Below, one piece after another: positions 37,232 through 41,232 of a stretch of DNA of 58,750 bases. The notes under the pieces were generated by a model. It was given only the letters and a program-made list of their open reading frames with translations, searched no databases and was not told where the DNA came from. Source of the stretch: Agromyces seonyuensis. Its GTDB lineage: Bacteria; Actinomycetota; Actinomycetes; Actinomycetales; Microbacteriaceae. The translations under genes and the position numbers were made by a program. The stretch lies in the NCBI RefSeq assembly GCF_009789225.1, contig NZ_WSTA01000012.1, positions 1 to 58,750 of the forward strand, given 5' to 3'. The number at the start of each line of letters is the position of its first letter. Positions within the stretch are counted from its first letter, which is position 1.

Positions 37232-38002
37232 TCAGCCGGCGGCGAGGCCCGCCGCGCCGATGATGCCCGCGTTGTTGCGGTGCACGGCGGCGATGATCGG
37301 CACGGACAGGTGCAGCTTCGGCAGGAACTTCTCGGGGTGCTTCGAGACGCCGCCGCCGACGACGAACAGGTCGGGGGAGAAGAGGAACTCGAGCGTCGAG
37401 TAGTACTTCTGGAGCCGTTCGGCCCACTGGTCCCACGAGAGCTCTTCGCGTTCCATGGCGGAGTAGGCGGCCCGCGACTCGGCGTCGTGACCGTCGATCT
37501 CGAGGTGTCCGAGCTCGCTGTTGGGCACGAGCACGCCGTTGTGGAGCATCGCGGAGCCGATGCCGGTGCCGAGGGTCGTCAGGATGACGAGCCCGTCGAC
37601 GCCCTTCGCAGCGCCGTTGCGGAGTTCTGCGACGCCGGCGGCATCCGCGTCGTTGACGAATCGGATGTCGCGATCGAGACGCTGCTCGAAGAGGCGCTCG
37701 GCCGGGAGGCCGATCCACTTCTTCGAGACGTTCGCCGCCGACAGCGTGCGCCCGTCCTTGACGATCGCCGGGAAGCACACGCCGAGCGGGAGCTTGTCGA
37801 GCTTCGGAGCGTCGTCGGCCTCGGCGATCTTGTCGAGCAACTCCGCCGTCGCTTCGAGGATGTCGTCCGGTTCGCCGCCGTCGGGTGTGAAGATCTTGAT
37901 GCGTTCGGTGACGAGTTTGCCGGTGCGGAGGTCGACCACGGCCCCCTTGATGCCCGTTCCGCCGATGTCGATGCCGATCGCGTGGTGGTGCGAGTTCCCC
38001 AT
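37232..38002 (-). CDS. ppgK: polyphosphate glucokinase
   Basis: The 256-residue ROK-type kinase phosphorylates glucose with polyphosphate or ATP to give glucose 6-phosphate. The N-terminal phosphate-binding motif is AIGIDIGGTGIKGAVVD, the catalytic Asp is in RFVNDADAAG, and the second phosphate motif is ILTTLGTGIGSAMLHNG. The C-terminal VVGGGVSKHPEKFLPKL is typical of actinobacterial PpgK. It has two possible starts; the ATG at 38002 is preferred. Upstream a -10-like TAGGGT (38015-38010) lies seven bases before it, inside the end of the map gene, so ppgK may have its own leaderless promoter. Confidence 0.95.
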   Translation of the reverse strand: MGNSHHHAIGIDIGGTGIKGAVVDLRTGKLVTERIKIFTPDGGEPDDILEATAELLDKIAEADDAPKLDKLPLGVCFPAIVKDGRTLSAANVSKKWIGLPAERLFEQRLDRDIRFVNDADAAGVAELRNGAAKGVDGLVILTTLGTGIGSAMLHNGVLVPNSELGHLEIDGHDAESRAAYSAMEREELSWDQWAERLQKYYSTLEFLFSPDLFVVGGGVSKHPEKFLPKLHLSVPIIAAVHRNNAGIIGAAGLAAG

Positions 38003-38007
38003 GGCCT

Positions 38008-38889
38008 TCACCCTACCGAGGTCGCCGGAGGCAGCGTCAGGATTTCGACGCCGCGCTCGGTCACGACCATCGTGTGCTCGAACTGCGCGGTGAGCTTCCG
38101 GTCCCGCGTCGTCACGGTCCAGTCGTCGTCCCACACGTCCCACTCGGTCGTGCCGAGGGTGAGCATGGGCTCGATCGTGAAGACCATGCCGACCTCGATG
38201 ATGTCGTCGTACTGCTCGGTGTCGTAGTGGGGGATGATCAGCCCGGTGTGGAACGCGCGGCCGACGCCGTGCCCCGTGTACTCCCGGACCACGCCGTAGT
38301 CGAAGCGCTTCGCGTACGCCTCGATCGCACGGCCGATGACGTTGACCTGACGCCCGGGCGCGACGGCCTTCATGCCGCGGCGCAGCGCCTCCTCGGTGCG
38401 CTCGACGACCAGTCGGGTCTCCTCGGCGCCCTCGCCGACGACGAAGGTGCGGTTGAGGTCGCCGTGATAGCCGTCGAGGTAGGCGGTCACGTCGAGGTTG
38501 ATCAGGTCGCCGTCCTCGAGCACGGTGTCGTCGGGGATGCCGTGGCAGATCACTTCGTTGACCGAGGTGCAGCTCGACTTCGGGTAGCCCCGGTAGCCGA
38601 GGGTCGAGGGGTAGGCGCCGTGGCCGACGACGTACTCGTGCACGATGCGGTCGAGCTCGTCGGTCGTGACGCCCGGTCGGATCGCCGCGGCCGCGGCCTC
38701 GATGGCGCCGGCGGCGATCGTGCCGGCGGCGCGGATGCGCTCGACCTCGTCGGGGGCGTAGCGGTCGCCCCCGGTGTTGGGGCGCGGCTCGGCGCGGCCG
38801 ACGTACTCGGGGCGGGCGATCGAGGCCGGCACGGCGCGCGCGGGCGACAGTCGGCCGGGGATCAGATGTCCGGCGGAATCCTTGGGCAT
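38008..38889 (-). CDS. map: methionine aminopeptidase, type I
   Basis: The 293-residue enzyme removes the initiator Met from nascent proteins. The five metal ligands of the pita-bread fold are visible: two Asp in [19 protein letters not shown], the His in [14 protein letters not shown], and Glu residues in [10 protein letters not shown] and AQFEHTMVV. An N-terminal extension of about 45 residues before [12 protein letters not shown] is usual in actinobacterial forms and may bind the ribosome. The ATG lies seven bases after a -10-like TAGGCT (38902-38897), so the mRNA appears leaderless. Its start codon lies within the putative -10 of the divergent SPOR-like gene. Confidence 0.95.
38010..38015 (-). 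promoter_or_regulatory. -10 hexamer TAGGGT before ppgK
   Basis: On the minus strand TAGGGT is followed by GAAGGCC and the ATG. It overlaps the map stop codon, so ppgK could be transcribed independently of map. Confidence 0.35.
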
Positions 38890-38904
38890 ACGATCAAGCC
38901 TATG
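38887..38904. promoter_or_regulatory. interlocked divergent leaderless promoters of map and SPOR-like gene
   Basis: The 12 bases between the two ATG codons contain most of both promoters. Plus-strand TACGAT (38889-38894) is followed by seven bases and the ATG at 38902. Minus-strand TAGGCT (38902-38897) is followed by seven bases and the ATG at 38889. Each hexamer shares its first base with the other gene's ATG. Neither start has a ribosome site. Confidence 0.6.
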
Positions 38905-39087
38905 ACTGCGGATATCGAGCAGAAGTTCTGGTACAACCTCAAGACCGGCGCGGTGGAGCACGGGTTCCAGTCGGCGTCGGCCGATCGCGTCGGGCCGTTC
39001 GACACGCACGCGGAGGCCGAGCAGGCGCTCGAGATCCTCCGCGCGAACTCGGCCAAGTGGGCCGAGGAGGACGCCGCCGAGGACTGA
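38902..39087 (+). CDS. small SPOR-like protein divergent from map
   Basis: The 61-residue protein has the sequence type [16 protein letters not shown]...[15 protein letters not shown], annotated in actinobacteria as a SPOR-domain-containing or methionine-aminopeptidase-adjacent protein. It is acidic, soluble and lacks a signal peptide, so the peptidoglycan-binding role of true SPOR domains is doubtful. The conserved aromatic core (FWYN, GPFDT) and terminal WAEEDA stand out. It is read from an apparently leaderless mRNA sharing its promoter region with map, which suggests co-regulation. No function is assigned. Confidence 0.8.
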
Positions 39088-39117
39088 CCCCGCCGGTCGG
39101 GTAGCGACAACTGACCT

Positions 39118-39193
39118 CGCCGGTCGAGTAGCGACGAAGGAGCGTATCGAGACCCCTTTGCAGGGTCTCGATACGCTTCGCACTCGACCGGCG
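39118..39193. repeat. palindromic repeat element acting as terminator
   Basis: The outer 12-bp arms CGCCGGTCGAGT (39118-39129) and ACTCGACCGGCG (39182-39193) enclose an inner 14-bp stem GCGTATCGAGACCC (39142-39155) with GGGTCTCGATACGC (39163-39176). It lies between the converging SPOR-like and M3 peptidase genes. The GGTCGAG...CGTATCGAGACC core recurs at 36558-36730 and 49161-49247. Confidence 0.8.
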
Positions 39194-39201
39194 ACGCCGG
39201 C

Positions 39202-41232
39202 TCAGGCGAGCCCGCGGCGCTCCAGGAGCGGCTCGATGGCCGCATCGCGGCCGCGGAACGCGCGGTACGCCTCGAGCGGGTCGCGCGAGCCGCCGATGCC
39301 GAGCACGAACTCGCGGAAACGGTCCCCGTTCGCCCGCAGCAGCCCGCCGTGCTCGTCGAACCAGGCGCCGGTGTCGGCGTCGAGCACCTCGCTCCAGATG
39401 TAGGAGTAGTAGCCCGCGTCGTAGCCGCCCGCGAACACGTGCGCGAAGTACGTGCTCGAGTAGCGCGGCGGCACGGCCGGGTCGTCGAGGCCGACGGCGG
39501 CGAGCGCCGCGGCCTCGAACGCGGCGACGTCGTGCACGTCGGCATCCGCGTCGATCGTGTGCCAGGCCTGGTCGAGCAGTGCGGCGGCGAGGTACTCGCT
39601 CGTTTGGAAGCCCTCGTTGAACGCCCGGGCCGCGAGGAGCTTCTCGACGAGCTCGGCGGGCATGGGCTCGCCCGTCTCGTGGTGCACCGCGTAGTTGGCG
39701 AGGATCTCGGGGTGGAGCATCCACATCTCGTTGACCTGGCTCGGGAACTCGACGAAGTCGCGGTAGACGTTCGTGCCGGAGAAGGACGGGTAGGTCGTGC
39801 GCGCGAAGAGCCCGTGCAAGGCGTGGCCGAACTCGTGGAAGAGGGTCTCGGTCTCGTCGTAGGTGAGCAGCGTGGGCTCGCCGGCGGCGGGCTTCGGCAC
39901 GTTGAGGTTGTTCACGACGACCGGCAGCCCGCCGAGGAGGTCGGATTGCTCGACGAGCGAGTTCATCCACGCGCCGCCGCGTTTGGAGTCGCGCGTGAAG
40001 AAGTCGCCGAGGAAGAGGCCGACGGGGGAGCCGTCCTCGTCGTGGACCTCCCAGATGCGCACTTCGGGGTGGTAGCCGACGAGGTCGGGGCGCGGGGTGA
40101 ACGTGATGCCGTAGAGGCGGGTCGCGGCGTGGAAGACGCCGTCCACGAGCACGCGATCGAGCTCGAAGTAGGGGCGCATGGCGGCGAGGTCGACGTCGTA
40201 GCGCTCGGTGCGCACCTGCTCGGCGTAGAACGACCAATCGGATGCCTCGATGGCGCGGCCGCCGACGGCATCCGCCCGCTCCTGCAGGAGCGCGAGCTCG
40301 GCGCGGGCGTTGCGGGCCGCCGCCGGAGCGAGCCGGCCGAGCATCGCGGCCACGGCCTCGGGCGTGCGCGCGGTCTGGTCGGCCGTGACGGCCGCCGCGT
40401 GGTTCGGGAAGCCGAGGAGCCGGGCGCGTTCGGCGCGCAGTCGCGAGATCCGCAGCACGAGCTCGCGGTTGTCGTGGTCGCCGCCGCGGCCGCCGCGCGA
40501 GCGCGAGGCCGTCATGATGCGGTCGCGCGTCGCCGGCGAGGTGAGGGCGGCGAGCCACGGATGCCCGGTCGGCAGCACGAGGGTGACGAGCCAGCCGTCG
40601 AGCCCGCGCGACTTCGCGGCCTCGCGCGCGGCGGAGCGCTCGCCCTCGCTCAACCCGTCGAGCTCGGCCTCGTCGGCGACGAGCACCGCGAGCTCGTTCG
40701 TGTCGGCGAGGAGTTGCTTCTCGAAGCGGGTCGTGAGCGTCGACAGCTCGGCGTTGAGCTCGCGCAGGCGGTCCTTGTCGGACTCGGCGAGGGCGGCGCC
40801 GGCGAGCGTCATCTCGGTGTGCCGGCGCTCGATGAGGTAGACGGACTCGGCGTCGAGGCCGAGCGCGCCGCGGTTCGCGTGCAGTGCGTCGATGCGGGCG
40901 TAGAGCACGGGGTCGAGTCGGATGCGGTCGCTGTGCGCCGCGAGGATCGGCGCGAACTCGGCCTCGAGACGGTTCGTCTCCTCGCTGGAGTCGGACGAGC
41001 TCTGGTTGTAGAAGACCCGCAGCACCCGGCCGAGGTACTGGCCGCTCCGCTCGAGCGGGAGCATCGTGTTCTCGAACGTCGGGGCGGACTCGTCGGCGGT
41101 GATCGCGGCGACCTCGGCTTCGTGCTCCGCGATCGCGGCGCGGAGCGCGGGCTCGTAATCGGACTCGGCGAGCTCGGCGAACGGGGGCAGTCGGTAGGGC
41201 AGGGGGCTCGGGGCGGCGAACGGGTTCGGCAT
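39202..41232 (-). CDS. M3-family metallopeptidase (Dcp/oligopeptidase A-like)
   Basis: The 676-residue cytoplasmic zinc peptidase of the thimet oligopeptidase family is nearest to peptidyl-dipeptidase Dcp and oligopeptidase A. The zinc site is HEFGH at 466-470 within ETLFHEFGHALHGLFA; the third ligand Glu is in the following helix near FVEFPSQVNEMWMLHP. A substrate-binding Tyr/Gly segment GYDAGYYSYIWSEVLDAD is near the C-terminus. It would degrade short peptides from protein turnover or signal peptides. There is no signal peptide. It converges with the SPOR-like gene over a palindromic repeat. Subfamily and exact cleavage mode are not resolved. Confidence 0.92.
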   Translation of the reverse strand: MPNPFAAPSPLPYRLPPFAELAESDYEPALRAAIAEHEAEVAAITADESAPTFENTMLPLERSGQYLGRVLRVFYNQSSSDSSEETNRLEAEFAPILAAHSDRIRLDPVLYARIDALHANRGALGLDAESVYLIERRHTEMTLAGAALAESDKDRLRELNAELSTLTTRFEKQLLADTNELAVLVADEAELDGLSEGERSAAREAAKSRGLDGWLVTLVLPTGHPWLAALTSPATRDRIMTASRSRGGRGGDHDNRELVLRISRLRAERARLLGFPNHAAAVTADQTARTPEAVAAMLGRLAPAAARNARAELALLQERADAVGGRAIEASDWSFYAEQVRTERYDVDLAAMRPYFELDRVLVDGVFHAATRLYGITFTPRPDLVGYHPEVRIWEVHDEDGSPVGLFLGDFFTRDSKRGGAWMNSLVEQSDLLGGLPVVVNNLNVPKPAAGEPTLLTYDETETLFHEFGHALHGLFARTTYPSFSGTNVYRDFVEFPSQVNEMWMLHPEILANYAVHHETGEPMPAELVEKLLAARAFNEGFQTSEYLAAALLDQAWHTIDADADVHDVAAFEAAALAAVGLDDPAVPPRYSSTYFAHVFAGGYDAGYYSYIWSEVLDADTGAWFDEHGGLLRANGDRFREFVLGIGGSRDPLEAYRAFRGRDAAIEPLLERRGLA

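Follow-up and report, generated by a model that had tools for sequence, protein, structure and literature searches.

We consider it probable that the 18 bp at the junction of map with a divergent gene for a SPOR-like small protein in Agromyces seonyuensis, CATACGATCAAGCCTATG, constitute a compact bidirectional promoter from which two leaderless genes are transcribed, and in which each predicted −10 element overlaps the start codon of the opposite gene. The features concerned lie in a stretch of 58,750 nucleotides that was analysed as a whole (the window):

38008–38889, minus strand: map, type I methionyl aminopeptidase, 293 aa, with its ATG at 38889–38887 (TIGR00500, E 1.3e-90; PF00557, E 6.2e-53).
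38902–39087, plus strand: gene for a 61-aa SPOR-like small protein, with its ATG at 38902–38904; homologues were found in 193 of the 199 family genomes.
38889–38894, plus strand: predicted −10 element of the SPOR-like gene, TACGAT; TANNNT is found here in 70 of 85 family map–SPOR loci and is absent from 15.
38897–38902, minus strand: predicted −10 element of map, TAGGCT; TANNNT is found 6–7 nt before the map ATG in 85/85 and 79/80 loci of the two samples described below.
38889–38890: common TA step, providing the first two bases of the plus-strand −10 and the inferred −1/+1 of the map transcript.
38901–38902: common TA step, supplying the leading TA of the map −10 together with the inferred −1/+1 of the SPOR-like gene's transcript.

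The nearest named relative of map among the matches listed is that of Agromyces bauzanensis (locus L009, 82% identity). The 61-aa protein has no Pfam or NCBIfam match at 1e-3, and its SPOR match is sub-threshold (E 0.03, below the Pfam cut-off). Just 5 nt separate the stop codon of map from the start of a ROK-family gene (TGA AGGCC ATG, 38000–38010); the minus-strand transcript may therefore carry both genes, and a map–ROK operon downstream of the predicted leaderless start is likely. On the other side, a strong inverted repeat lies 3′ of the SPOR-like gene (39093–39195). Folded as DNA, the segment 39090–39200 has an energy of −44.8 kcal/mol (z −8.5), and nearly all of the 128 matches of a similarity search fall on the inverted-repeat part of its query, pointing to a dispersed REP-like hairpin in this genome.

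The junction occupies positions 38887–38904 and contains two divergent ATG codons with 12 bp between them. CAT at 38887–38889 is the map ATG read on the minus strand, ATG at 38902–38904 starts the SPOR-like gene on the plus strand, and the gap between them (38890–38901) reads ACGATCAAGCCT. On the plus strand TACGAT is followed by 7 bases and then the ATG at 38902, while on the minus strand TAGGCT (38902–38897) is followed by 7 bases and then the ATG at 38889, and each hexamer begins with a T whose base-pairing partner is the start-codon A of the other gene. The original prediction had described this arrangement (two ATGs, 12 bp, 7-nt spacers and common first bases), and on re-reading the letters it proved exact. 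It had also stated that mutating one start codon would alter the opposite promoter, which holds for the predicted elements, as a change of the start-codon A would change the other hexamer. The two hexamers are separate, standing 2 bp apart (38889–38894 and 38897–38902), and do not constitute one −10 common to both strands. The palindromic pattern CATANNNTNNANNNTATG has a single copy in the 3.9-Mb genome, namely this junction, and its reversed-pattern control has none; as about 0.07 copies are expected by chance (calculated from the window's 72% GC), we conclude that the pattern is not a chance occurrence. No Shine–Dalgarno sequence was visible upstream of either the map or the SPOR-like ATG on unscored inspection of both strands, a consensus −35/−10 scan of 38700–39100 returned no match, and an Rfam search of 37500–40500 likewise returned none.

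The rule by which we call a start leaderless, a spacer of 6–7 nt, was set from the family's own DNA. With map/SPOR junctions left out and the first ATG taken as the start, the family DNA that was fetched holds 1514 frames of 250 aa or more; TANNNT precedes the ATG by 6 nt in 119 of them and by 7 nt in 66, and each other spacing from 0 to 15 occurs in only 0–8 frames. The junction spacers, 7 nt on both sides, fall within this enriched class. The peak agrees with what the available portions of two papers report, namely TANNNT about 12 bp before the start in leaderless (TA-led) actinobacterial genes (PMC3160421) and TANNNT in M. tuberculosis, where no −35 motif was found and purine starts were most often flanked by pyrimidines (PMC3898074).

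Conservation of the map side extends well beyond the family. Among the best 80 of 574 map loci across Actinomycetota, TANNNT stands 6–7 nt before the chosen map start in 79 (46 at 7 nt, 33 at 6 nt), a count in which the start with a hexamer was chosen wherever several were possible. In 76 of these 80 loci a divergent SPOR-like gene is found upstream of map, its match starting within ~300 bp; no SPOR-like match was found in L064, L067 and L075, and L074 has only a weak match elsewhere. The pairing of the two genes is thus old, and a leaderless map is predicted in nearly all cases. Within the family, the map hexamer is present in each of the 85 loci that adjoin a SPOR-like gene (73 at 7 nt, 12 at 6 nt). 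These counts bear on the possibility that the start codons are mis-called, with both genes having leaders and distant promoters and the hexamers arising by chance. In its favour, many TANNNT motifs of M. tuberculosis have no start site (~16,400 copies, of which >3,100 have one; PMC3898074, in the portion available), but the enrichment at 6–7 nt, the conservation of the map hexamer in both samples and the lack of a visible Shine–Dalgarno sequence at either ATG make this explanation very unlikely. That the hexamers are leaderless −10 elements, as had been proposed, is very probably correct in view of their conservation in relatives.

The junction as a whole was compared in 121 family loci, the window and 120 stretches fetched from the 193 genomes with a SPOR-like match; the stretches were taken from a best-first list, with some entries skipped. 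In 85 loci map is divergent, adjacent and aligned from its first residue, the rule by which we define adjacency, and in 36 it is not. The hexamers had been expected to persist at a fixed distance across Microbacteriaceae, and both are anchored in 70 of the 85 adjacent loci, 40 of which, from 18 genera, also retain both start codons and hence the full 12-bp interlock. The other 45 adjacent loci are not interlocked. An anchored SPOR-side hexamer is missing from 15 of these, and in 30, from 17 genera, both hexamers remain with the SPOR-like start codon elsewhere (genus counts were read by hand from genome labels). In these 30 loci the SPOR-side TANNNT continues to take its first base from the T of the map CAT. 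At other leaderless-like starts, the two anchoring bases (T at −1 and A at −5) occur together in 15 of 258 cases (6/102 at 7-nt spacing and 9/156 at 6-nt spacing), and the comparison of 30/45 with 15/258 yields a binomial p of ~1e-26, a value that ignores kinship although related genomes are not independent. The predicted start site in all 30 is an A that is also the partner of the map hexamer's first T. From this common A, the next SPOR start lies 20–24 nt downstream in 18 loci and 32–104 nt downstream in 12, and a Shine–Dalgarno-like match by a loose rule precedes the shifted start in 25 of the 30; the choice of SPOR start and the division into Shine–Dalgarno-led and unclear classes are both rule-based and loose. 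The hexamer pair is therefore kept while the predicted translation mode of the SPOR-like gene differs.

The loci form a natural series (L186, L193, L210 and others) in which the SPOR-like gene is, depending on genus, either interlocked and leaderless or led by a Shine–Dalgarno sequence, with both hexamers in place. The T and A corresponding to 38901–38902 are in register in 66 of the 70 anchored loci; the remaining 4 (L210, L214, L222 and L230, all among the 30 with a shifted SPOR start) are one base shorter in the middle, with both spacers at 6 nt. The junction of L259, CATACGATCGATCGTAG, contains the perfect palindrome TACGATCGATCGTA, in which both hexamers are the same word, and L257 and L264 have near-palindromes around GATCGATC.

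Among the 36 non-adjacent loci, the SPOR-like gene has TANNNT 6 or 7 nt before its start in 17, a Shine–Dalgarno-like start in 18 and an unclear start in 1; one of the 17, L265, is in reality an 11-bp interlocked junction that was missed because its map alignment began at residue 36. Each promoter can exist alone, and the interlock is a packing of two modules. A −35 element was also sought through synonymous codon bias in map. The Gly codon of a Gly-His pair at map residues 7–8 is GGT in 27 of the 53 anchored loci that have it, and GGT accounts for 243 of 1845 later map Gly codons; this bias does not discriminate the anchored loci, because 7 of 11 loci without an anchored hexamer show GGT there too.

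The 18 bp could also be conserved as a transcription-factor operator, a near-palindrome (commonest form AGGATCAAGCTT) kept for protein binding. Such a site would fit with the occurrence of identical CATAGGATCAAGCTTATG in loci of several genera and with the C that follows the SPOR hexamer in 63 of the 70 anchored loci. However, outside the bases fixed by selection of the loci, constancy is highest within the map hexamer (A, T and A, 66/70 each), the SPOR hexamer is variable at its three inner positions (top base 70–73%), and unrelated gene pairs share the geometry with a different inner sequence. We regard an operator as improbable and return to the bidirectional promoter.

Under the promoter reading, RNA polymerase with what we take to be the housekeeping sigma factor would bind in either orientation, using TACGAT or TAGGCT as its −10 element, and transcription would begin with the A of the start codon on whichever strand is used (38902 on the plus, 38889 on the minus), so that both mRNAs would begin at their start codon. 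Each TA step would provide the first two bases of one −10 together with the −1/+1 start site of the other transcript, and can serve both strands because TA is its own reverse complement. Since only the T of the opposite CAT can supply the first T of TANNNT, the gap would be fixed at 12 bp with 7-nt spacers or at 11 bp with 6-nt spacers, and no tighter packing would be possible so long as the opposite start codon is CAT. Under the interlock both start codons would have to begin with A, the opposite −10 fixing that base, and inserting or deleting a single central base would alter both spacers together. The hexamer pair could stay in place when the SPOR-like start codon moves downstream behind a Shine–Dalgarno sequence. 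Judging from the geometry, the two promoters would never be occupied at once, and steric exclusion of simultaneous binding is likely on general grounds; this exclusion may matter little unless a promoter is strong, because no substantial basal competition was found at five E. coli bidirectional promoters (PMC12825309, in the portion available).

The geometry recurs at other gene pairs, which the original prediction had not noted. We searched 199 family genomes for two hexamers anchored on opposite start codons, on the forward strand only as the pattern is its own reverse complement, and obtained 11, 114, 116 and 14 matches at gaps of 10, 11, 12 and 13 bp, respectively, with 32, 19, 41 and 20 for the reversed-pattern controls. 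In a larger sample of 398 genomes, the 12-bp form was found in 185, with 219 matches vs 68 controls. These totals include orthologous junctions repeatedly (map/SPOR alone accounts for at least 40 of the 116 12-bp matches), and the independent units are therefore the five recurrent gene pairs described below. A fully overlapping palindromic −10 (19-bp gap, TANNNTA) gave 35 matches vs 18 controls in the 199 genomes, a weaker signal than that of the interlocked form, and was set aside.

Flanks were read for 116 distinct family instances, comprising search-returned loci and 40 picked stretches, less duplicates. With gaps of 11–12 bp, 75 of 101 instances are flanked on each side by a frame of 55 aa or longer, and 71 of 101 belong to five recurrent gene pairs; with gaps of 10 or 13 bp, two such frames are found in 2 of 15 and none of the 15 is recurrent, in a smaller sample where recurrence is less likely to be seen. 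The recurrent pairs, with domains checked on one representative of each new pair, are a chorismate-binding enzyme and a class IV aminotransferase (45 instances), a UPRTase and a deaminase (9), map and SPOR (9), a DUF255 thioredoxin-like protein and an MBL-fold protein (6), and a DAGK and an aminotransferase I-II (2). We take the first of these to be pabB/pabC-like and the second upp/tadA-like. Three of the four further pairs occur in both 11- and 12-bp forms, and map/SPOR too is found in the 12-bp form in the window and in the 11-bp form in A. bauzanensis (L009). The remaining 30 of the 101 are single instances; in most of them one or both flanking frames are short, which is what chance matches would give.

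The divergent chorismate-binding enzyme/class IV aminotransferase pair carries the 11- or 12-bp interlock in L126–L134, L307–L309, L312–L318, L320–L323 and others, and outnumbers map/SPOR in the instances read (45 vs 9).

The distribution of the interlock is uneven. Within Agromyces, the 12-bp form occurs in just 2 of the 10 genomes sampled, and the 11-bp form was found in 1 of 5 searched (G240, whose junction has the same 17 letters as that of L009) and not in G000, G079, G142 or G194. In G079 and G194, map was not found in the stretch fetched around the SPOR-like gene, which keeps TANNNT 6 nt before its ATG (L159 and L151). Elsewhere in the family, an anchored hexamer is lacking from the loci of Curtobacterium and from three of the four of Leucobacter. 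In the 80-locus actinobacterial sample, 51 loci lack it, including all those of Streptomyces and Micromonospora; outside the family, it is present in most Arthrobacter-like loci and both Sinomonas loci, and not in L055 or L085. Across the phylum, the 12-bp form showed no clear enrichment (158 matches vs 133 controls in 398 genomes), and the interlock is thus a family feature, not one of the Actinobacteria as a whole. Elsewhere in the order, the 11-bp form gave 57 matches vs 19 controls, above control, but in most cases two open frames were lacking: of 30 loci read, 8 are flanked on each side by a frame of 55 aa or longer, and none is among the recurrent gene pairs. We therefore did not retain the order-wide form. 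Overall, the predicted interlock is specific to the family, perhaps extending to some neighbours, and is not phylum-wide. As the hexamer pair is present in both Microbacteriaceae and Micrococcaceae, it may predate their split, with convergence as an alternative.

The five pairs and the two gap lengths raise the possibility of a distinct Microbacteriaceae class of divergent leaderless promoters, "TA-locked" at 11- or 12-bp gaps, in which one polymerase-sized site would act as a one-at-a-time switch setting the ratio of the two outputs, with both start codons locked to ATG. We offer this only tentatively. Two ordinary leaderless promoters may instead abut, each kept for its own gene, with the overlap a by-product of compaction that has no regulatory effect; this account shares the promoter anatomy set out above and denies only that the overlap has consequences, and we give it about an even chance. 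It is consistent with the TANNNT placed 6 or 7 nt before the SPOR-like start in the 17 non-adjacent loci (including the truly interlocked L265), with the retention of the map −10 in Streptomyces and Micromonospora loci that lack the interlock, and with the little basal competition reported for E. coli bidirectional promoters (PMC12825309, in the portion available). The sharp peak at 11–12 bp and the five gene pairs nevertheless show that the packed form was reached and kept repeatedly, which does not by itself imply a regulatory benefit.

If the starts are as predicted, two genes have their promoters, start sites and start codons contained in 18 bp, in a form that is conserved and re-used at several gene pairs. 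The compact bidirectional promoter would then open the question of whether opposing polymerases compete when their promoters are inseparable, and the map/SPOR series bears on how a gene moves between leaderless and Shine–Dalgarno translation with its promoter unmoved. For annotation, it would provide a sharp start-codon rule for genomes of the Microbacteriaceae family.

A literature search, with most subscription papers outside its reach, did not find a −10 element overlapping the start codon of the opposite gene. The junction resembles actinobacterial leaderless (TA-led) genes in its TANNNT ~10–12 bp before the start and its lack of a Shine–Dalgarno sequence (PMC3160421, PMC3898074); it differs in that the opposite promoter and start codon occupy the same bases, a packing that the available portions of these papers do not describe. 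In M. tuberculosis, leaderless prpD and its divergent regulator form a similar pair, divergent and with both mRNAs leaderless (here predicted), and closely juxtaposed divergent promoters are called common there, whereas overlap of a −10 with the opposite start codon is not described in the portion available (PMC3898074). The bidirectional promoters of Warman, Grainger and colleagues are likewise close: opposite starts lie 10–23 bp apart around a symmetric −10 sequence, which there accommodates one polymerase orientation at a time. According to the available portion of PMC12825309, the common start separations in E. coli are 18, 10 and 23 bp around a shared −10, basal firing of five such promoters is too low for the directions to compete, and activating one direction represses the opposite. 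Unlike that type, with its shared −10, the junction described here has separate hexamers and holds in common a TA step, start site and start codon, with both mRNAs predicted to be leaderless. Its predicted start separation, with starts placed from sequence, is 13 bp (12 in the short form), and 13 is not a preferred distance of the Warman type as covered in that portion. By our own reading of the geometry, the E. coli 10-bp class could be an analogue that uses the second TA of TATAAT.
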